DNA of 64,000 nucleotides, from positions 1 through 64,000 of the forward strand of contig JAUXNJ010000044.1 in NCBI GenBank assembly GCA_030682795.1. The letters run 5' to 3'. This document shows positions 14,351 to 23,853 of this stretch, in pieces. Source of the DNA: Sphingobacteriaceae bacterium. GTDB lineage: Bacteria; Bacteroidota; Bacteroidia; UBA7662. The notes below the pieces were generated by a model. It was given only the letters and a program-made list of their open reading frames with translations, did no database searches and was not told where the DNA came from. Position 1 is the stretch's first letter. Each line of letters begins with the position of its first letter. A program made the translations under genes and the position numbers.

Positions 14351-16975
14351 ATGAAGCAGTTTTTTAACATTCTGATTTTGGTAATTGGTATTTTACCAGC
14401 ACATGCACAACAGGTTGTTCGTTGTTACACAACTGAAATGCAGGAGCAATTGCGTCAGCAGGGACAATGGCCTGAATCCGATGTGCAATTTGAGCGCTGG
14501 ATAGCCGAACGCATTGCATTGATGCAGGTACAAGGGGGCGTGGAGTCGGAATATGTGCTACCAGTAGTGGTGCACATTATTTATCAAAATGAAAATAACC
14601 CTTGGAATATTAGTAATGCACAGGTACTTTCTCAAATGCAGGTTTTAAATGAGGATTTTTTACGAACCAATCCTGATACTGTAAATACCCCGCCGGCTTT
14701 TTTACCCGCGGCAGTAAATACCTCGATAAGTTTCTGTTTGGCGCAACGCGACCCGCAGGGAAATCCTACTACAGGCATCATTCGTCACGCTTTCCCGAAT
14801 ACGACGGCCTGGAGCACCAATGCTTTTAACAGTACTGTAAAACCAGCTACCATTTGGGACCCAACGAGGTACCTTAACGTATGGATTGCGAATTTAAGTG
14901 GTGGCGTATTGGGCTATGCGCAATTCCCTACAGGTTCGGGTTTGCCAGGATTGAGTGGCGGCACGAATGCCAATACAGATGGCATCGTTCTTTTGTATAC
15001 GTCGGTAGGTAGGCCACCCTTCAATCCGTTCCCAGGTGTATACAATCGCGGACGTACTGCGACGCATGAAGTTGGACATTATTTAGGACTACGACATATT
15101 TGGGGAGATGGGGGTTGTAGTGTAGATGATTTTTGTGCGGATACACCTCCATCGGATGCAGCCAATTTTGGTTGTCCGGTTACACATGTTTCTTGCGGGA
15201 ATGTAGACATGGTGCAGAATTATATGGATTATACGGACGATGCCTGTATGAATATTTTTACTGCCGACCAAAGAACCCGCATGATAGCGGTGATGCAAAA
15301 TAGTCCGAGACGCCTGACACTGCCAACATCCTTGAGTTGTTTGCCACCTGTGCAACGACCCATGGCAGGCTTTTTACAGACCGCTGACACCATATGCACA
15401 GGCGGCCTGGTAAGCTTCACCGACCTGAGTACAAATCAGCCAAGTGCGTGGTTATGGACTTTTGTAGGAGGCACGCCGGCAACAGCCACCACTGCAAATC
15501 CAAGCAATATAAGGTATGATAGTTCGGGTGTTTTTAAAGTAACGCTTATTACAACCAATACAGCCGGAAGCGATACTTTAGAAAGGCAATTTGCGGTGGT
15601 GGTGCAGCCTGCCCTAAACGCTGTATTGGATAGTTTAGCCCCAATATGTGTGAACCAAGCTCCGCGCATACTTACATCTGGTTTACCAAGGGGAGGTGTT
15701 TACAGCGGACCAGGAGTGGTTAGTGATAGCGTATTTAATCCTGCTGCAGCCGGTGTAGGTACCCATGCCATCATATATACTTTACCAGGTTGCGGCAGCA
15801 GTGATACGGCCAGTATAACCGTGTTTCAGGCGCCAGCGCCCGACTTACAGTTGGCAACGCAAAGCTTTTGTGTAAACGATAGCGCGGTGCTTTTACAAGC
15901 TACGCCTCCAGGAGGTGTTTTGAGCGGAGCTGGTGTATCGGGCAATACTTTTTCTCCGGCCCAGGCTGGTGCAGGCACGCACGCCTTGGTTTATAGTCTC
16001 AGCAATGCCGTAGGTTGCGTGAGTACCGACACAATTGTAGTGGTGGTGAATGCTTTGCCTCAAGTTAATTTGCCAATTTTGGTACCGGTTTGTGTGGCTA
16101 CACCCTTTGTGGTATTGCCCCCTGCTACACCAGCTGGTGGAAGCTGGGCAGGCCCCGGTGTTTCTAATGATACCTTGTATCCTGCTTTGGCAGGTAGTGG
16201 CCTCGTTTCTTTAACCTACACTACGCCAGCTGCGGCACAAACAGGTTGTGTAAACAGGGCCATAGCAACAATCAATATTAGTCCAGTACCTGTGTTAAGT
16301 TTTACACCGGTAGCCCCATTATGTGTGAGGGGCAATAATTTATTGCTCAACCAAGCCAATATTGGAGGGGGTAATTATAGTGGACCTGGTGTGACTTTTG
16401 GAATTTTTAGTCCTGCGCAAGCCGGTGTAGGCACCCATACCATTCAATTTACGGGGAACAGTGGGGGTTGTTCGGTGGCTGGAAGTTATACGGTACAAGT
16501 GTTTGCAGCGCCCGCGGCTGAAATTGAAAATGGAATGAATGATAGTTTACGGTCAAGAAATATGGCCGATAGTTATCGATGGTATTTAGATGGGCAATTG
16601 CTTGTTAATGAAACCAGTCGCAGTCTTCGGCCACAAACGAGTGGGGTGTACAGCCTTGAGCTGGAGGAAAATAGCTGTGCTTCGTTTCGCAGTAGTGATT
16701 TTGCTTACTTTATGACCTCGGTTCAAGAGGGAAGTACTACAACTTTCAGCGTATATCCGAATCCCTCAAGCGGGTTGTATGTATTTGAGACGCGTCAGGC
16801 AGTTGATAGGATGTATGATTTGCAGATCACCGATCTTCAGGGTCGTGTGTTGCAACAGGTCAGCAGCAGTGCAGCCCAGTTTGAAATAGACTTACGTGGC
16901 GTTTCTGCGGGTGTGTATTTACTGCGTTATAGCAGTGGCGCAAACGTAAGTTGGATGCGCTTGGTGAAGCACTAA
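14351..16975 (+). CDS. Secreted M43 (pappalysin-like) metalloprotease with T9SS sorting domain
   Basis: The 874-residue exported zinc protease has a signal peptide (1-20, ending AHA-Q). Its M43 catalytic domain (about 70-330) carries the zinc motif HEVGHYLGLRH (H239, E240, H243, H249) and the Met-turn region NYMDYTDDACM, both typical of M43B enzymes. A PKD domain follows (about 335-420), then four copies of a ~70-residue module built around YSGPGV and AGVGTH (about 425-720). The same module occurs in the S8 protease upstream. The T9SS type A domain starts VYPNPSSGL near residue 795. The stop is only 5 bases from the stop of a decayed, convergent dxs tail. Confidence 0.9.
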   Translation: MKQFFNILILVIGILPAHAQQVVRCYTTEMQEQLRQQGQWPESDVQFERWIAERIALMQVQGGVESEYVLPVVVHIIYQNENNPWNISNAQVLSQMQVLNEDFLRTNPDTVNTPPAFLPAAVNTSISFCLAQRDPQGNPTTGIIRHAFPNTTAWSTNAFNSTVKPATIWDPTRYLNVWIANLSGGVLGYAQFPTGSGLPGLSGGTNANTDGIVLLYTSVGRPPFNPFPGVYNRGRTATHEVGHYLGLRHIWGDGGCSVDDFCADTPPSDAANFGCPVTHVSCGNVDMVQNYMDYTDDACMNIFTADQRTRMIAVMQNSPRRLTLPTSLSCLPPVQRPMAGFLQTADTICTGGLVSFTDLSTNQPSAWLWTFVGGTPATATTANPSNIRYDSSGVFKVTLITTNTAGSDTLERQFAVVVQPALNAVLDSLAPICVNQAPRILTSGLPRGGVYSGPGVVSDSVFNPAAAGVGTHAIIYTLPGCGSSDTASITVFQAPAPDLQLATQSFCVNDSAVLLQATPPGGVLSGAGVSGNTFSPAQAGAGTHALVYSLSNAVGCVSTDTIVVVVNALPQVNLPILVPVCVATPFVVLPPATPAGGSWAGPGVSNDTLYPALAGSGLVSLTYTTPAAAQTGCVNRAIATINISPVPVLSFTPVAPLCVRGNNLLLNQANIGGGNYSGPGVTFGIFSPAQAGVGTHTIQFTGNSGGCSVAGSYTVQVFAAPAAEIENGMNDSLRSRNMADSYRWYLDGQLLVNETSRSLRPQTSGVYSLELEENSCASFRSSDFAYFMTSVQEGSTTTFSVYPNPSSGLYVFETRQAVDRMYDLQITDLQGRVLQQVSSSAAQFEIDLRGVSAGVYLLRYSSGANVSWMRLVKH

Positions 16976-17246: not shown

Positions 17247-17492
17247 ATGAAAATCAAACAGAATTTGGCAATGAGCGATACCGGGTTTTTGTTCAACCCC
17301 GGTAATGGCGACTCCTTTTCAGTAAATCCTATTGGTCTTGAAATCATACAACTGATAAAAAGTGGTCAGGATGCAGCAGCCATCAAAGGCACTTTGCTCG
17401 AGGCCTATGCAATTGATAGCGATACGCTGGAAAAGGACATTTATGATTTTTTGAATACGCTGCGCCGTCATAAGTTAGTTCATGAAGCGTGA
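17247..17492 (+). CDS. PqqD-like small protein
   Basis: The 81-residue protein matches PqqD-type folds in pattern. An N-terminal strand pair contains F-L-F-N-P-G-N-G-D-S-F-S-V-N-P-I-G-L-E-I-I, followed by helices ending in an acidic, amphipathic C-terminal segment (D-I-Y-D-F-L-N-T-L). PqqD proteins hold a peptide substrate and present it to a modifying enzyme. No radical SAM gene is nearby, so the partner here is more likely the ATP-grasp enzyme encoded next, whose start overlaps by 11 bases. I chose the ATG at 17247 because upstream codons in this frame add only a poly-Phe-like stretch before the conserved part. It is the first gene of the six-gene operon. Confidence 0.7.
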   Translation: MKIKQNLAMSDTGFLFNPGNGDSFSVNPIGLEIIQLIKSGQDAAAIKGTLLEAYAIDSDTLEKDIYDFLNTLRRHKLVHEA

Positions 17493-18528
17493 GCTTACCA
17501 TCGCTGTCAGCGGCTTGAATGCCATTGACAGTCCCGGTCCGGGCATTGCCGTGATCCGAGCGCTCAAGGAAAGTACACGTTATGACATACGCATTGTGGG
17601 CTTGAGCTACGAGGCCTTAGAGCCTGGTTTATACATGCGTGATTTGGTAGCCATCAGCTATCAAATACCGCTGCCCGCTGCGGGTCAGCAAATACTTTTT
17701 GATCGCATTGCCTGGATTCATCAGCAGGAGCAAATCGACTTCATCATTCCTAATTTTGATGCTGAGTTGTTTAATTTCATCAAGCTAGAAAAGCGCTTGA
17801 AAACGGAGTTGGGCATCCATATGTGCTTACCAACAGAGCGTCAATTCGAAGCCCGCCAAAAGGCAAATTTGTACGATTACGGCGTAGAACATGGCATTAA
17901 GGTTCCAAAAGCAAAGTTGGTTTACAGTCCCAAGGACATTTACAATTTGCATGAGGATTTTACTTTTCCTTTAGCGGTTAAGGGCAAGTATTACGAGGCC
18001 ACCATTGCCTACAACGTAGAGCAAGCCCTAGCTGCTTTTTATAAATTGAGCGCCAAATGGGGTTTGCCAATCATTGCCCAAGAATTTGTGAAAGGCTCGG
18101 AGGTAAATGTAACCGCTCTTGGCGACGGGTTAGGAAATACCATTGGTGCGGTGCCTATGCGCAAGCTTTATATTACAGATAAAGGCAAGGCCTGGGCAGG
18201 CATTACGCTAGATGATGAGCAGTTGCTGGAAATGACCAAAAAGCTCATCTCTGCTACTCGCTGGCGGGGTGGTTTGGAGTTGGAGATCATACGCACAGAT
18301 GAAGACGAATATTACCTCTTAGAAATCAATCCACGCTTTCCTGCTTGGGTTTATTTGGCGAAGGGAGCCGGACAAAATCATCCTGAAGCGCTTGTGGCCA
18401 TTGGTTTAGGAGAGGAGGTTGCTCCTTTCAGTCAGTACGACATCGGAAAGCTGTTTGTTCGATACAGCTGGGACATGATTGTAACGCTTGAAGATTTCCA
18501 AAAAATTTCTACTACAGGGATATTATAA
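17482..18528 (+). CDS. ATP-grasp ligase, CarB-like
   Basis: The 348-residue protein has a pre-ATP-grasp domain (about 1-110) and an ATP-grasp domain (about 120-310). Visible motifs are a Lys in AVKGKYYEA, Gln-Glu in IIAQEFVKGSEVNV, and metal-binding E281 and N283 in LLEINPRFPAW. These match the CarB/biotin-carboxylase branch of ATP-grasp ligases. Such enzymes activate a carboxylate with ATP and join it to an amine, thiol or carboxylate. The acceptor cannot be read from sequence. Overlap with the PqqD-like gene suggests a peptide or protein-bound substrate, and the decarboxylase 9 bases downstream suggests that an amino acid is attached or processed. No signal peptide is present, so it is cytoplasmic. 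Confidence 0.75.
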   Translation: MKRELTIAVSGLNAIDSPGPGIAVIRALKESTRYDIRIVGLSYEALEPGLYMRDLVAISYQIPLPAAGQQILFDRIAWIHQQEQIDFIIPNFDAELFNFIKLEKRLKTELGIHMCLPTERQFEARQKANLYDYGVEHGIKVPKAKLVYSPKDIYNLHEDFTFPLAVKGKYYEATIAYNVEQALAAFYKLSAKWGLPIIAQEFVKGSEVNVTALGDGLGNTIGAVPMRKLYITDKGKAWAGITLDDEQLLEMTKKLISATRWRGGLELEIIRTDEDEYYLLEINPRFPAWVYLAKGAGQNHPEALVAIGLGEEVAPFSQYDIGKLFVRYSWDMIVTLEDFQKISTTGIL

Positions 18529-18537
18529 AATAGTAAG

Positions 18538-19893
18538 ATGAAAAAGACCTACGAAAGTCCCATGATTACCCCGTTGCACTCAGGCTTGATGAACAAGTTT
18601 GGTACGCGACGTAATTTTGAGCCTATGACCCACATTGATGGGGTGGCGGTAAAGGATTTGTTAGCAACCTTTGGGAGTCCGCTTTTTGCTTTTAGTGAAC
18701 GCAGCATTCGTGAAACTTACCGGGATGCGGTGCGTGCTTTTACAACACGCTATCCTAAAGTGCAATTTGCATGGAGCTATAAAACGAATTATCTGAATGC
18801 CATTTGTCAAGTTTTTCACAGCGAAGGAGCTTGGGGAGAGGTGGTATCTGGCATGGAATATCAAAAGGCCTTACAAAATGGGGTGCCGCCTTCTCGGATT
18901 ATCTTCAATGGCCCTGATAAAACCAACGACGAGCTCCGAATGGCTGTTGAAAATCAATCACCTATCCACATCGATCACCTCGATGAATTGTACAGATTGA
19001 TTGAGATTGCACGCGCCTTGGGTAAAAGACCCCAAGTGGCCATTCGAGTGAACATGGATACCGGGGTGTATCCCATTTGGGATCGTTTTGGCTTTAACTA
19101 TGAAAATGGTAGTGCCTGGGATGCGATCAATAAGATTATACTCACCGATACGCTTGATTTAATGGGATTGCATTGCCACATTGGAACGTTTATGTTGAGC
19201 ACCAATGCCTATGCCATTGCAACCGCAAAAATGTGTGAGTTGGCCAGAAGCTTGCAAGCCAAGCATGGCAAAAAAATAGCTTATATCGATATGGGTGGCG
19301 GATTTGCATCCAAAAACACCTTAAAAGGCAGCTATATGCCTGGTGCAGATACCAGTCCAAGCTTCGATGATTATGCTGAAGCCATTTGCACCGCCATGCT
19401 CAATGCAGGTTTTGAAGCCGACGCGCTACCCTTATTGGTGCTTGAAACCGGGCGGGCCTTGATTGACGAGGCAGGCTATTTATTGGGTTCGGTACTGGCC
19501 AACAAACGCTTGTCAGATGGCCGTAGGGCCACCATTTTGGATTTTGGCGTGAATGTGCTTTTTACAGCCTTTTGGTACGACCATGATGTGTATCCCGCGC
19601 AAGCTTTTGGGGCACATGCCGAAGAATCGGTGGTTTATGGGCCGCTATGTATGAACATAGATGTGATTCGAGATAACGTTTCACTTCCGCCCTTGCAAGC
19701 TGGTGAGCAGTTGGTAGTGTGTCGGGTGGGGGCTTACAACATCACCCAAAGCATGCAGTTTATCAGCATGCGACCAGCGGTGGTATTGATTGACGAACAG
19801 GGAAAGCCACATCTTATTAAAAAGCGAGAAACTTTACAAACCATTGAAATGGACGAGGCCATGCCTAGTTATCTCATGCCCAAGCCGAATTAA
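18538..19893 (+). CDS. Fold III PLP-dependent decarboxylase, diaminopimelate-decarboxylase-like
   Basis: The 451-residue enzyme resembles LysA-type decarboxylases. PLP Lys is K82 in WSYKTNYLNAI, the barrel histidines are H212 and H214 in GLHCHIGTF, the phosphate-binding loop is GGG at 253-255, and ETGRALIDEAG follows. C371 lies in YGPLCMNID, and GAYN begins a C-terminal motif before SMRP. It should remove a carboxylate from the D-centre or alpha-carbon of an amino acid or conjugate. The first ~35 residues extend beyond the usual LysA start. Its place in an operon with an ATP-grasp ligase and a PqqD-like protein argues against plain lysine synthesis. Carrier-linked amino-acid decarboxylases such as BtrK belong to the same fold and offer a precedent. 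Confidence 0.8.
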   Translation: MKKTYESPMITPLHSGLMNKFGTRRNFEPMTHIDGVAVKDLLATFGSPLFAFSERSIRETYRDAVRAFTTRYPKVQFAWSYKTNYLNAICQVFHSEGAWGEVVSGMEYQKALQNGVPPSRIIFNGPDKTNDELRMAVENQSPIHIDHLDELYRLIEIARALGKRPQVAIRVNMDTGVYPIWDRFGFNYENGSAWDAINKIILTDTLDLMGLHCHIGTFMLSTNAYAIATAKMCELARSLQAKHGKKIAYIDMGGGFASKNTLKGSYMPGADTSPSFDDYAEAICTAMLNAGFEADALPLLVLETGRALIDEAGYLLGSVLANKRLSDGRRATILDFGVNVLFTAFWYDHDVYPAQAFGAHAEESVVYGPLCMNIDVIRDNVSLPPLQAGEQLVVCRVGAYNITQSMQFISMRPAVVLIDEQGKPHLIKKRETLQTIEMDEAMPSYLMPKPN

Positions 19894-19907
19894 CTAGCGG
19901 AACTGCC

Positions 19908-22163
19908 ATGTTAAAAAAAGCAGATCTAGACGAGGTAGTGGATGGCGTATTAAATAGCTACGGTCAAATTTTGTTCGTAGACAAGCCCCGCTACAGCCGT
20001 TGGTTGCTATTGGTGACTATGTTTTTTCCGTTTTCTGGGATCAGCGGTCTGTATGCCGTATTGGTTAGCCACGGCTGCGCCCGCTTGTTGGGCTTTGATC
20101 GGCAATTGATTAGTTCGGGTTTTTTAGGATACAATGCACTCATGACGGGGATTGTTTTGGGTGGTTATTTCAATTTGAATGCAGCTTTAATCGTCATCCT
20201 TACCCTGGCCTCTTTGTTGACGCTGTTCATTACCCTTTGGTTTCGAAAAGTGCTTTATGACAAAAATTTGCCTTTTTTGAGTCTGCCCTTTTTAGCGGCT
20301 GTATGGACGATGCTTTTGAGTGTGCGTGGCTACAAATCGCTTGCCTTGAGCGATGCTGGGATTTATACTTATAACGAGCTGGCTTATTGGGGGGGATTAG
20401 GATTGGTACGTTGGTATGAATGGCTTCAACAATTACATATTCCAGGCTTTTGGGATGTTTTTTTCAGGTCGATGGGCGCCATATTTTTTCAGTACAATTT
20501 GCTGGCAGGAGTGATCATTACCCTGGTTTTGTTGTGGCATTCACGCATTGCCACGGTGTATGCGTTTTTAGGCTTTTTAACCGGCTACTACTTTTTTCGT
20601 TTCGTAGATGGAAATTTTAATGAGCTGCATTACAGTTATATAGGCTTTAATTTTATTCTCACTAGCATTGCCTTAGGTAGTTTTTTTCTGGTGCCTGGTT
20701 TTTGGGCCTTGTTGGTGAGTTTCTTGGCTGTTCCGATGACTGCCATACTCATCAGTGCATTTACAGGCTTGTTTTATTCGGCTCAATTGCCGCTTTATTC
20801 CTTGCCATTTAACCTGGTGGTACTCATGATGATTGTGGTGTTGCGCCAACGGTGGCAAGCAAGCGGACCGCAATTGGTAGTCGATCAACAAGGACAGCCA
20901 GAAAAAAACCTCTACAGTTTTCAAAGCCGTGCGGTTCGATTCAAGCATTTGTATTGGTTGCCGATTCAACTGCCTTTTTTCGGTCGTTGGCGGGTAAGTC
21001 AAGGGCATAGTGGCGACATCACGCATCAAGGTGCGTTTGCATGGGCTTTAGATTTTGATGTGGTTGATAAACATAGCAAAACTTATAAGGGAGAGGGCTT
21101 TGAGTGTAGCGACTATTATTGTTACGACAAGCCTGTATTGGCGCCTGCTGCTGGTTGGGTGGTGCAGCTCATTGATGAAATTCCAGACAATGATATTGGC
21201 CAGTCTAACCTCGAACACAACTGGGGAAATACTTTGGTAATCAAGCACCTCGAGGGTCTGTATAGTAAATTGAGTCACCTCAAAGCCGGTAGTTTTTCGG
21301 TGAAACTAGGCGATTTTGTACAAACGGGAGAAGTAGTAGCGCGGTGTGGAAGCAGTGGACGGTCGCCGGAACCACATTTGCATTTTCAAATGCAAGCAAC
21401 TGCTTTTATAGATGCGCCAACCCTATGGTATCCTATTGCGCAGTTTTTGAAAATAGCAGATCAAAAAACCGAACTGTTGCATTTTACCATTCCTCAAGAA
21501 CGTGAAGTTGTTAGTAGGATTGAAACAGTAGCGATAGCGCGAGATGCCTTTGGCTGGCAACCCGGGCAAACCATAACGGTAATGGCAGAAAATAAACTCG
21601 GAGAAATTGAGCAGTTTGTATGGAATGCCGGCATTGATATGGCCAATACGCGCTATTTGTACTGTGAGCAATCGCAAAGTACCCTTTGGTACATTGCCAG
21701 CGATACCAATATGATGTGTACTACTTTTAGGGGAGACACCACATCGGCTTTACATGCCTTTTTTATTGCTTGCCAGCATCTTTTATTGGCCGATTTGCCT
21801 GATCAGTGGCGAAACGATGAGCCAGAATTGCCTCAGTTGCATCCAGGTGCTTGGCTATGGCTACAGGATTTGCTAGCACCTTTTTTCCGATTTTTACATA
21901 CGGGTTACACCAGTAATAGTCGGGTGACTGAGGTTGGAGTTGCTGGTCCTCAGGCCATGGAAATACTATTTGAAGCCTGGATTCGACTAAGTTTAAAAAA
22001 ACAAGAAGCTAAACCATACAGCAGCTTGGAGGCATCCAAAGGCTTTCGTTTTTCGCAGATTAGCGGCAAAATCAATATTGTTTCGGCAGCAAATGGCCTG
22101 CCATTACTTCGAGAAATTAGCTTTGAAAAACATCCCAAATGGTGCGTATTGCAATTTATTTAG
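19908..22163 (+). CDS. Urea-transporter-like channel fused to an M23 peptidase domain
   Basis: The 751-residue protein combines two families. Residues about 25-310 form a urea transporter (UT) domain with the internal duplication intact: the pore signature LPxxSLPF occurs at about 122-129 and again at 294-301, and a G-Y-N / G-F-N motif precedes each. Residues about 345-500 form an M23 (LytM/lysostaphin-like) domain with H373, D382, H457 and the HLH motif at 490-492. This supports zinc binding and peptidoglycan or peptide cleavage. The last ~250 residues match nothing I recognise. UT channels carry small polar solutes across the inner membrane; how the peptidase relates to transport is unknown. 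The 3' end overlaps the next gene by 25 bases. Confidence 0.8.
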   Translation: MLKKADLDEVVDGVLNSYGQILFVDKPRYSRWLLLVTMFFPFSGISGLYAVLVSHGCARLLGFDRQLISSGFLGYNALMTGIVLGGYFNLNAALIVILTLASLLTLFITLWFRKVLYDKNLPFLSLPFLAAVWTMLLSVRGYKSLALSDAGIYTYNELAYWGGLGLVRWYEWLQQLHIPGFWDVFFRSMGAIFFQYNLLAGVIITLVLLWHSRIATVYAFLGFLTGYYFFRFVDGNFNELHYSYIGFNFILTSIALGSFFLVPGFWALLVSFLAVPMTAILISAFTGLFYSAQLPLYSLPFNLVVLMMIVVLRQRWQASGPQLVVDQQGQPEKNLYSFQSRAVRFKHLYWLPIQLPFFGRWRVSQGHSGDITHQGAFAWALDFDVVDKHSKTYKGEGFECSDYYCYDKPVLAPAAGWVVQLIDEIPDNDIGQSNLEHNWGNTLVIKHLEGLYSKLSHLKAGSFSVKLGDFVQTGEVVARCGSSGRSPEPHLHFQMQATAFIDAPTLWYPIAQFLKIADQKTELLHFTIPQEREVVSRIETVAIARDAFGWQPGQTITVMAENKLGEIEQFVWNAGIDMANTRYLYCEQSQSTLWYIASDTNMMCTTFRGDTTSALHAFFIACQHLLLADLPDQWRNDEPELPQLHPGAWLWLQDLLAPFFRFLHTGYTSNSRVTEVGVAGPQAMEILFEAWIRLSLKKQEAKPYSSLEASKGFRFSQISGKINIVSAANGLPLLREISFEKHPKWCVLQFI

Positions 22164-23251
22164 TCTTTGCGCTGTTAGCATGCCAGGAGGCGAAAGGGCA
22201 AACTTCTGCCGAGCGCGATAGCTTGGGGCGACTGCTTTTTGAGCGCCGGGACTGGCAGGCTGTTCGTCAAAACAGCAAAGACGCCATGACACAGGGATTT
22301 ACCACCTATGCCTTTGTATTTAGATTGGCGTTGGCAGAACTGGAACAAGGGAGGTGGGTGCATGCAGAAAAGCACCTTCGACAGGCAATAGCGCTCAATC
22401 CGATAGACAAGACCCCAGTAGCATTGTTAGCGGCATTGCTTCAAAAATTGGGCAGGACCGAAGAAGCGGCTTTGTATAAGCCCATGCCGTTTTATATGCA
22501 AGCAGGTATTGAGGGAGGTTTGAAACTTCCGAATACCGACTCCTTGGGGAATTTAGGTTATCAGGGTGCCTACTTAAAACATCCCATACATGCTTCAGCA
22601 AGTTTAACCCATGCCTTTACACGCTTAAACCAAAAGGTTTATTGGGGAGATTTTACACAACTACAGTACTATATAGCCTACCGACAAGCCTTCCGTGGGG
22701 GGTGGTTGCTTACGTTGGGTGCGCATTTCTTAAGATTTTCAGGAAATATTTTGTTCGATAGTTCGCAGTTTAATAATGGCGGTGATTTAGTGGCCTTAGA
22801 GCTCAGTAAGCAATTTGGCCCCATCGGTTTGGCTCCACAGTATTCCATTGCAACGCTTTATGGCCGAACGCAGCAACAGCTCGGACTTAAATTATCGGTA
22901 TTCCCAGCGCGCTTTGCAGCGGTGCGTTACGATTTAAATCCCATGTTCAATCGTGATAGCAGTACATCAGCAAGCGCCTTGAGTCAAGCGCTTCACTGGT
23001 TTCCTTCTGCTCGGATTCATTTCGCACTAACTCATTATGTGGGTAATGGCTATAATTTTCAGGAACAAGCGGGTTACCTCGTAAACAATGGTATTAATCT
23101 TACCCGAAGCAGGTGGGGGGGCTATATTGAGTATGGTTTCCACCAGCGATGGAGGATGTTTTTGCTGTACCAGTACGAATCAGGTACCGAGCGGTTTTTT
23201 AATTTTGATTACCATTACAACAGTGTTTTTTTAGGTCTTAAGTTTCAATGA
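22139..23251 (+). CDS. Outer-membrane beta-barrel protein with N-terminal TPR region
   Basis: The 370-residue exported protein has a hydrophobic signal segment ending near AKG-Q (residues 20-21); an LLAC sequence inside it could instead be a weak lipobox. Residues about 30-115 are TPR-like helices with the typical A-L-x-L-N-P ending. From about 120 to 370 the sequence alternates in the manner of beta-barrel strands and ends with L-G-L-K-F-Q. The plan resembles YaiO-type outer-membrane proteins. The start overlaps the UT-M23 gene by 25 bases, and the next gene overlaps by 4, so translation is probably coupled. It may be the outer-membrane part of the operon's transport or assembly route (inference). 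Confidence 0.7.
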   Translation: MVRIAIYLVFALLACQEAKGQTSAERDSLGRLLFERRDWQAVRQNSKDAMTQGFTTYAFVFRLALAELEQGRWVHAEKHLRQAIALNPIDKTPVALLAALLQKLGRTEEAALYKPMPFYMQAGIEGGLKLPNTDSLGNLGYQGAYLKHPIHASASLTHAFTRLNQKVYWGDFTQLQYYIAYRQAFRGGWLLTLGAHFLRFSGNILFDSSQFNNGGDLVALELSKQFGPIGLAPQYSIATLYGRTQQQLGLKLSVFPARFAAVRYDLNPMFNRDSSTSASALSQALHWFPSARIHFALTHYVGNGYNFQEQAGYLVNNGINLTRSRWGGYIEYGFHQRWRMFLLYQYESGTERFFNFDYHYNSVFLGLKFQ

Positions 23252-23853
23252 TGACATACAAAATTCTTTTATTCGCTTTTTTGAGTTTAATAGCCCAGCT
23301 GGCCAAGGGTCAAGAGCTGGGACAAGCATTTGCTCAGTCACACGCAGCGGAACAAAGGGGAGACCTCAAGTTAGCCATCGCTGCTTTGCAAGGCACCAAA
23401 GACAACAGTTATCTTGTGCTTTTACGCTTGGGTTATTTGCATTACAGCAGTGGCCTGGCAGCCGAAGCGATGCAGTACTATCAACAAGCCATTAAACTGC
23501 GGCCCTTTGCCATTGAGCCGCGACTCGGAATGGCCAATGCAGCAGCCCAAGCCAATAACTGGGCCCAAGTTCAATTGCAATACGAGGCCATTTTGAGGAT
23601 TGATCCCAATCAAACCTATGTGCACTATCAATTGGGCATGATTAAGTATAATAAGAAGGAGTATGCAAACGCCTTGCGGCACTTTGAGAAGGTAGCCAAC
23701 CTGTATCCAGCCGATTTTGATGGGATGATTATGTTGGCCTGGACACATTTTCGACTTGGAAAACTGAAAGAAGCCAAGGTTTTGTTTCAACAAGTTTTGT
23801 GGCTACGCCCTAACAATGCATCGGCTTTGGAAGGATTGTCTATGATTAAGTAG
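23248..23853 (+). CDS. Exported tetratricopeptide-repeat protein
   Basis: The 201-residue protein has a signal peptide (1-21, ending AKG-Q) followed by about five TPR units with the usual spacing and end motifs (AIKLRPFAIEPR, ILRIDPNQTYVH, VANLYPADF, VLWLRPNNAS). TPR scaffolds mediate protein contacts, here most likely in the periplasm. It is the last gene of the operon and overlaps the outer-membrane gene by ATGA. I see no hairpin terminator in the 105 bases before the convergent dxs. Confidence 0.8.
   Translation: MMTYKILLFAFLSLIAQLAKGQELGQAFAQSHAAEQRGDLKLAIAALQGTKDNSYLVLLRLGYLHYSSGLAAEAMQYYQQAIKLRPFAIEPRLGMANAAAQANNWAQVQLQYEAILRIDPNQTYVHYQLGMIKYNKKEYANALRHFEKVANLYPADFDGMIMLAWTHFRLGKLKEAKVLFQQVLWLRPNNASALEGLSMIK

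Follow-up and report, generated by a model that had tools for sequence, protein, structure and literature searches.

RiPP recognition elements (RREs) are read as markers of pathways that make ribosomally synthesized and post-translationally modified peptides (RiPPs). In the RRE-Finder study, discrete lasso-type RREs found without lasso machinery were either counted as false positives or considered potential members of RiPP classes yet to be discovered (PMC7470986). What such an RRE might bind is the question raised by an operon in a 64,000-nucleotide stretch of a Sphingobacteriaceae genome (contig JAUXNJ010000044.1, positions 1 to 64,000; hereafter the window), in which a gene for a PqqD-like RRE (gene 1) is followed on the same strand by genes for an ATP-grasp ligase (gene 2), a fold III pyridoxal phosphate (PLP) decarboxylase (gene 3), a fusion of a urea transporter (UT) domain with an M23 metallopeptidase domain (gene 4, UT-M23), a barrel protein (gene 5) and a tetratricopeptide repeat (TPR) protein (gene 6). 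Judged from sequence, the gene 1 protein very probably docks the N-terminal tail of the decarboxylase, and we put at about 0.6 the probability of the whole model, in which an RRE-assembled ligase-decarboxylase pathway feeds the channel and a small nitrogenous metabolite is made and handled.

Among solved structures, the profile of gene 1 matches two lasso RREs best, TbiB1 (3.5e-13) and TfuB1 (1.3e-8), with PqqD itself at 0.007. The ligands of discrete lasso RREs are leaders with the motif [Y/W]xxPx[L/V/I/F/A]. LppB shows how the motif is gripped: Asp70 forms a bond with its Tyr, Asn33 holds the kink at its Pro in place, and a pocket is built from Phe74, Met78 and Leu83 (PMC13381572). Aligned by spacing, gene 1 has equivalents of these residues in N27 (LppB N33), Y54, D64 (the Tyr-binding Asp), F68, L72 and L77. 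Across a sample of 180 Bacteroidota loci, assembled from 40 neighborhoods, then 80 from named genome records, then 60 more, N27 is kept in 178/179, site 54 is Tyr or Phe, site 68 is mostly Phe, and D64 is present in 161/179, being absent only beside decarboxylases with a Phe in the tail (one locus is unreadable). The tail itself, YERPxI...NKFG, is conserved in the operon decarboxylase (Y/F5, P8 and I/L/V10 each 100%; K20 and G22 each 99%), is absent in ordinary LysA, and fits the lasso leader motif. In an AlphaFold model of the decarboxylase (mean pLDDT 88.8), residues 7-26 score below 50, so that the tail, despite its strong conservation, does not pack with its own enzyme in the model.

The two partners also covary. 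The Asp was chosen from published structures; visual inspection of the first 40 loci brought the swap to light, and the 180 then served as the test. Tail Tyr is paired with gene 1 Asp64 in 158/158 loci and tail Phe with Tyr, Ser or His at site 64 in 16/16, with no exception where both residues are readable. A perfect partition by the tail residue occurs at one of 80 RRE columns (site 64) and at none of 348 ATP-grasp columns, and among the 452 decarboxylase columns only at the tail Tyr itself. On a tree built from the ATP-grasp and decarboxylase sequences, the tail residue switches on two branches, and both times the RRE site switches with it; these cases include L209 and L210, two loci that lie inside the Phe clade and carry both Tyr and Asp. 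The probability of two such coincidences by chance is about 2e-5, a rough branch-length estimate that would shift with another tree or reconstruction. Given that Phe has no hydroxyl for Asp to bond, the pattern is as predicted by direct binding, and the lasso motif on the decarboxylase together with the Tyr/Asp partition makes the decarboxylase the most likely partner of gene 1. The original prediction noted that PqqD folds present peptides to modifying enzymes and supposed an amino acid attached to a carrier or peptide; most likely the PqqD-like protein neither presents a precursor nor carries the amino acid, and binds the decarboxylase tail instead. A carrier role in the style of amino-group carriers, with a conserved C-terminal attachment site, was also considered and rejected because the C-terminus is not conserved.

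The likeness to the discrete RREs of lasso and LPP pathways (TbiB1, TfuB1, PbaB1 and LppB) thus covers sequence, pocket residues, ligand motif and the Tyr-Asp contact, whereas the motif here resides on a 451-aa enzyme and the operon has no protease, cyclase or precursor gene. If docking is correct, leader recognition would reach enzyme assembly outside RiPPs and some orphan RREs would be explained.

The operon is a conserved, probably horizontally mobile system of Bacteroidota, for which no earlier description was found. Genes 1 to 4 keep their order on one strand in 170/180 loci, the barrel and TPR genes usually lie downstream of this four-gene core, and the flanking genes on both sides vary by lineage. 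The scattered, unlinked homologs that would have spoken against the co-inherited, undescribed system originally proposed were not seen. In most of the ten loci outside the full order the contig breaks off within the operon; one (L088) has no UT-M23 next to genes 1-3, and another (L135) is without a recognized UT-M23. L141 keeps the order despite a two-gene insert between decarboxylase and UT-M23, where a class I/II aminotransferase and a histidine kinase are encoded (L141:11534-14496). An IF-2B family gene (PF01008) occupies the same position in three loci (L143:11426-12340, L149:11464-12369 and L168:11511-12455). One further copy, L074 (G178:C1:1-9000), was left out of the counts as coming from overlapping contig ends; the same operon stands at the other end of that contig in L057 (G178:C1:3724000-3742000), most likely reflecting an unclosed circular assembly, not two copies.

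In relatives the ATP-grasp is all-or-nothing, with 55-64% identity or no comparable match. The operon occurs in 76/395 Bacteroidia genomes (about a fifth) and in two other classes of Bacteroidota, and at least 565 matching stretches were found in GTDB species genomes. Pairwise distances correlate between genes (ATP-grasp and decarboxylase, r = 0.88; ATP-grasp and UT, 0.81; UT and TPR, 0.75). One Bacteroidia locus (L056) falls in a clade mostly of another class, which fits horizontal transfer. Records titled Candidatus Competibacteraceae (L161) and Melainabacteria (L163) carry the operon, the former title being probably a misnomer. A mobile plasmid system was rejected, as a tblastn search of plasmids with the ATP-grasp returned one distant Streptomyces record only.

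The decarboxylase is not a second LysA. Operon copies from 25 genomes score 211-248 bits against TIGR01048, all below the cut-off (227.5 vs 297.9 for the window copy), and 22 of these genomes have a separate LysA above it; in the genome of the window this LysA is without the tail and reads GNICETD at the catalytic Cys. These scores, the tail and the separate LysA rule against the second-LysA assignment, and the other outcome that would have counted against the original prediction, a decarboxylase clustering with the ordinary LysA of genomes that have no second lysA, was not borne out. By profile, the closest solved decarboxylase is the N-citrylornithine decarboxylase 7KH2 (299 bits), followed by diaminopimelate decarboxylase (DAPDC, 230) and BtrK (about 145), although the cut-off of NF041039 for N-citrylornithine decarboxylase is not reached (211 vs 500 bits). 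In the N-citrylornithine decarboxylase FigC, the acidic residue responsible for binding the side-chain amine has given way to Met355, and DAPDC Arg343 to Thr residues (PMC7857480). The operon enzymes have M372 after the catalytic Cys in 171/171 and T343 in 166/171, matching the FigC M355 and T327/T330 changes, and show neither the acidic residue after the catalytic Cys nor the Arg343 equivalent that mark LysA and DAPDC. At the site of FigC His357, which was modeled on the citryl group, I374 stands in 171/171. Taken together, M372, T343 and I374 suggest, as the probable substrate, an amino acid with a side chain blocked by acylation or in some other way, though not by citrate.

Pairing of such an enzyme with an ATP-grasp ligase has precedent. 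In the butirosin pathway, BtrJ reportedly loads an amino acid. This protein has been placed among the ATP-grasps resembling carbamoyl phosphate synthetase (CPS) (PMC4431377), and BtrK acts on a linked amino acid (PMC7857480). The operon resembles BtrI/BtrJ/BtrK in joining an ATP-grasp with an alanine racemase (AR)-fold decarboxylase, whose substrate here would likewise be a linked amino acid; it differs in that the acyl carrier protein there is replaced by an RRE apparently docking the decarboxylase, in the additional channel, M23 and envelope genes, and in a decarboxylase whose profile is closer to FigC than to BtrK. The rhizoferrin system FigA/FigC (FslA/FslC) shares the Met after the catalytic Cys, the Thr for DAPDC Arg343 and, probably, an acylated amino acid substrate, whereas it uses an NRPS-independent siderophore (NIS) synthetase in place of the ATP-grasp, has His357 where Ile374 is found here, and includes an MFS exporter that the operon does not have. 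In a 758-aa protein on a Streptomyces zaomyceticus plasmid, an ATP-grasp homolog (residues 2-296, 142 bits to the profile) is joined to a decarboxylase half of the AR fold with the Cys-Met pair retained, suggesting that ligase and decarboxylase work on one pathway; no further fusion of the two was found in plasmids. With the FigC and BtrK profile matches, this fusion bears out the pairing in the manner of BtrJ/BtrK proposed earlier, and we consider it likely that a single pathway, involving a blocked amino acid, employs both enzymes. The RRE of Bacteroidota may stand in for covalent fusion of ligase and decarboxylase. The Streptomyces fusion gene (L235:7998-10271) lies beside genes for a 195-aa protein of no known kind and a fatty acid desaturase.

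The UT-M23 model (mean pLDDT 87.6) superimposes on solved members of both families: residues 1-343 align at full length with UT-B and dvUT (Z about 37, rmsd about 2.5, ~310 residues), and residues 349-527 with M23/LytM domains (Z about 13, rmsd about 2.5, ~125 residues). Hence the whole 10-transmembrane fold of urea transporters is shared, and the C-terminal M23 fusion sets the operon protein apart from them. In 395 Bacteroidota genomes, UT genes are of two sorts, standalone urea transporters, which are encoded apart from the operon and retain Glu and Thr in the pore, and UT-M23 fusions, every one of which, among the loci inspected, stands behind the same decarboxylase and ATP-grasp. Compared with standalone transporters of the same phylum, the fusions have mostly Ser for the Thr and have lost the Glu at the dvUT Glu187 site, positions that we take to have pore roles in dvUT. 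The curated YUT equivalog score is not reached (120.6 vs 274.6 bits), and the solute may be something other than urea.

All five positions of the M23 catalytic set (H, D, H, HxH) are invariant. In UT-A the termini are intracellular (PMC12649947), and the UT domain here has an excess of basic over acidic residues at each end and an acidic central loop. Homology and charge pattern together predict that the M23 domain faces the cytoplasm, an unusual placement that we hold to be likely. The last three proteins had been described as an envelope set spanning inner membrane, outer membrane and periplasm; the UT channel, the barrel and the exported TPR protein fit this description, and the M23 domain, predicted to be cytoplasmic instead of periplasmic, does not. 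Signal peptides were recognized by eye in both the barrel and the TPR protein, the barrel part of gene 5 has no informative Pfam match, and in some lineages its role is filled by barrel-like proteins of about 280 aa.

These parts can be arranged into a sequence of steps, of which docking is strongly supported, the chemistry inferred and export speculative. The lasso-type RRE would take as its partner the YxxPxI tail of the operon decarboxylase and not a free peptide, and tail docking would gather decarboxylase and ATP-grasp ligase in one complex. With ATP, the ligase would join a carboxylate to an amine, and the decarboxylase would act on the resulting side-chain-blocked amino acid to give an N-acyl amine or amide, following the logic of BtrJ/BtrK and FigA/FigC. 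The UT domain would serve as a channel with an altered pore, at whose mouth the cytoplasm-facing M23 domain would trim the product or a precursor. Finally, the product might cross the inner membrane through the UT and the outer membrane through the barrel, assisted in the periplasm by the TPR protein; export by this route is doubtful. Several points weigh against the model. M23 domains of known role act outside the cytoplasm, and the UT orientation was derived from homology and charge alone. The pocket argument excludes free diaminopimelate (DAP) better than it names a substrate, the Tyr/Asp coupling reflects only two to three evolutionary events, the decarboxylase half of the Streptomyces fusion is only distantly related (29.7 bits), and one locus (L088, 7091-10007) has genes 1-3 without an adjacent UT-M23.

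Other explanations accommodate parts of this evidence. The tail could double as an RRE leader and as a carrier arm built into the enzyme, the RRE presenting it so that the ATP-grasp loads an amino acid on Lys20, which is 99% conserved in a disordered stretch; the same polypeptide would decarboxylate its own load, and the cytoplasmic M23 would free the product at the channel mouth. We regard this variant as unlikely. An undescribed RiPP pathway, in which the RRE binds a precursor encoded elsewhere that is modified by the ATP-grasp and the decarboxylase, is suggested by PqqD-like proteins serving as RREs in known RiPP clusters, by graspetides, which are made by ATP-grasp enzymes (PMC8939145), and by the AR-fold enzyme MccE, which decarboxylates a modified peptide. 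Yet among 842 short open reading frames (ORFs) at 173 loci no conserved precursor family was found, only small clusters resembling out-of-frame readings of neighbors, in agreement with the original prediction that no precursor gene is present; the genome has a single PF05402 protein, hence one RRE, and the lasso motif belongs to the decarboxylase, where it varies in step with the RRE. The leader motif on the enzyme itself most likely explains the missing precursor, and a RiPP pathway appears quite improbable.

A cell-wall system is also conceivable, in which M23 cuts stem peptides, the decarboxylase attacks the free D-center of muropeptide-linked DAP, and the ATP-grasp re-ligates, the products being recycled or exported as signals. 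The invariant M23 catalytic set and the grouping of the decarboxylase with DAPDC-like enzymes agree with it, and the loss of the binding residues for the distal amine and carboxylate fits DAP acylated and amidated at the L-center as well as N-acyl ornithine; with M23 predicted to be cytoplasmic, the operon confined to roughly a fifth of Bacteroidia genomes and no special role left for the UT channel, we consider this rather unlikely. That the genes are unrelated neighbors without shared function (a second LysA, ordinary urea uptake and a cell-wall peptidase) is barely credible: each family is common on its own, but the order persists while the flanks change, operon genomes mostly have a separate above-cut-off LysA while their operon copies all fall below, and standalone UTs with pore Glu and Thr lie outside the operon. 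The RRE-assembled pathway is a combination of known fold families for which no known counterpart was found. No match to the gene set, or to an RRE serving an enzyme tail, was found in the literature searched, which lay mostly outside subscription journals and is therefore weak evidence. If the model holds, a widespread metabolic system is exposed, with a channel-peptidase fusion of which that literature gave no description.

The features are listed in Table 1. As originally described, the six genes lie on one strand with spacings from -25 to +14 (in order, -11, +9, +14, -25 and -4), and the family key residues singled out, E281/N283 of the ATP-grasp and K82 of the decarboxylase, are invariant in family alignments. 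The ORF list starts gene 1 at a TTG (17181), and the family alignment favors the ATG at 17247.

Table 1. Features of the operon in the window, with family assignments from Pfam and NCBIfam profiles.
Feature	Coordinates	Strand	Residues and remarks	Profile match
PqqD-like RRE, 81 aa (gene 1)	17247..17492	+	N27 (codon 17325-17327), Y54, D64 (17436-17438), F68, L72, L77	PqqD PF05402, 8.8e-13
CPS-like ATP-grasp ligase, 348 aa (gene 2)	17482..18528	+	E281/N283 invariant	ATPgrasp_Ter, 9.5e-9; CPS-like PRK12767, 1e-27
Fold III PLP decarboxylase, 451 aa (gene 3)	18538..19893	+	K82, C371, M372	Orn/DAP/Arg decarboxylase, 7e-33
Leader-like N-terminal tail of decarboxylase	18538..18618	+	Y5, P8, I10, then K20-F21-G22	
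UT-M23 fusion, 751 aa (gene 4)	19908..22163	+		
UT channel domain, residues 1-343	19908..20936	+	10 transmembrane segments; pore residues altered	UT, 5e-53
M23 metallopeptidase domain, residues 349-527	20952..21488	+	H373, D382, H457, H490, H492 invariant; predicted cytoplasmic	Peptidase_M23, 6e-15
C-terminal mostly-beta region of UT-M23	21489..22160	+		No Pfam match
Signal peptide, one TPR and outer-membrane-like beta barrel, 370 aa (gene 5)	22139..23251	+		TPR; no informative Pfam match for the barrel part
Exported TPR protein, 201 aa (gene 6)	23248..23853	+		TPR

Directly upstream of the operon, many loci have regulators of the AraC type (19 loci) or LytTR type (10 loci) or hybrid sensor kinases, and expression is probably signal-induced in those lineages. 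In L095, L096, L103, L104 and L110, a hybrid histidine kinase of 731-744 aa, with CHASE3, HisKA, HATPase and receiver domains and an Hpt domain in L095, precedes the PqqD-like gene, overlapping it or at most 37 bases away. One lineage has a conserved exported protein of about 280 aa upstream (L070:5218-6054, L071:4611-5447, L093:12274-13125 and L094:10231-11070), whose C-terminal sorting-like tail would suit a type IX secretion cargo with a possible link to the operon. In the window, the gene just upstream (14351-16975) encodes a secreted M43 metalloprotease with PKD and Por_Secre_tail domains, which is not conserved alongside the operon.

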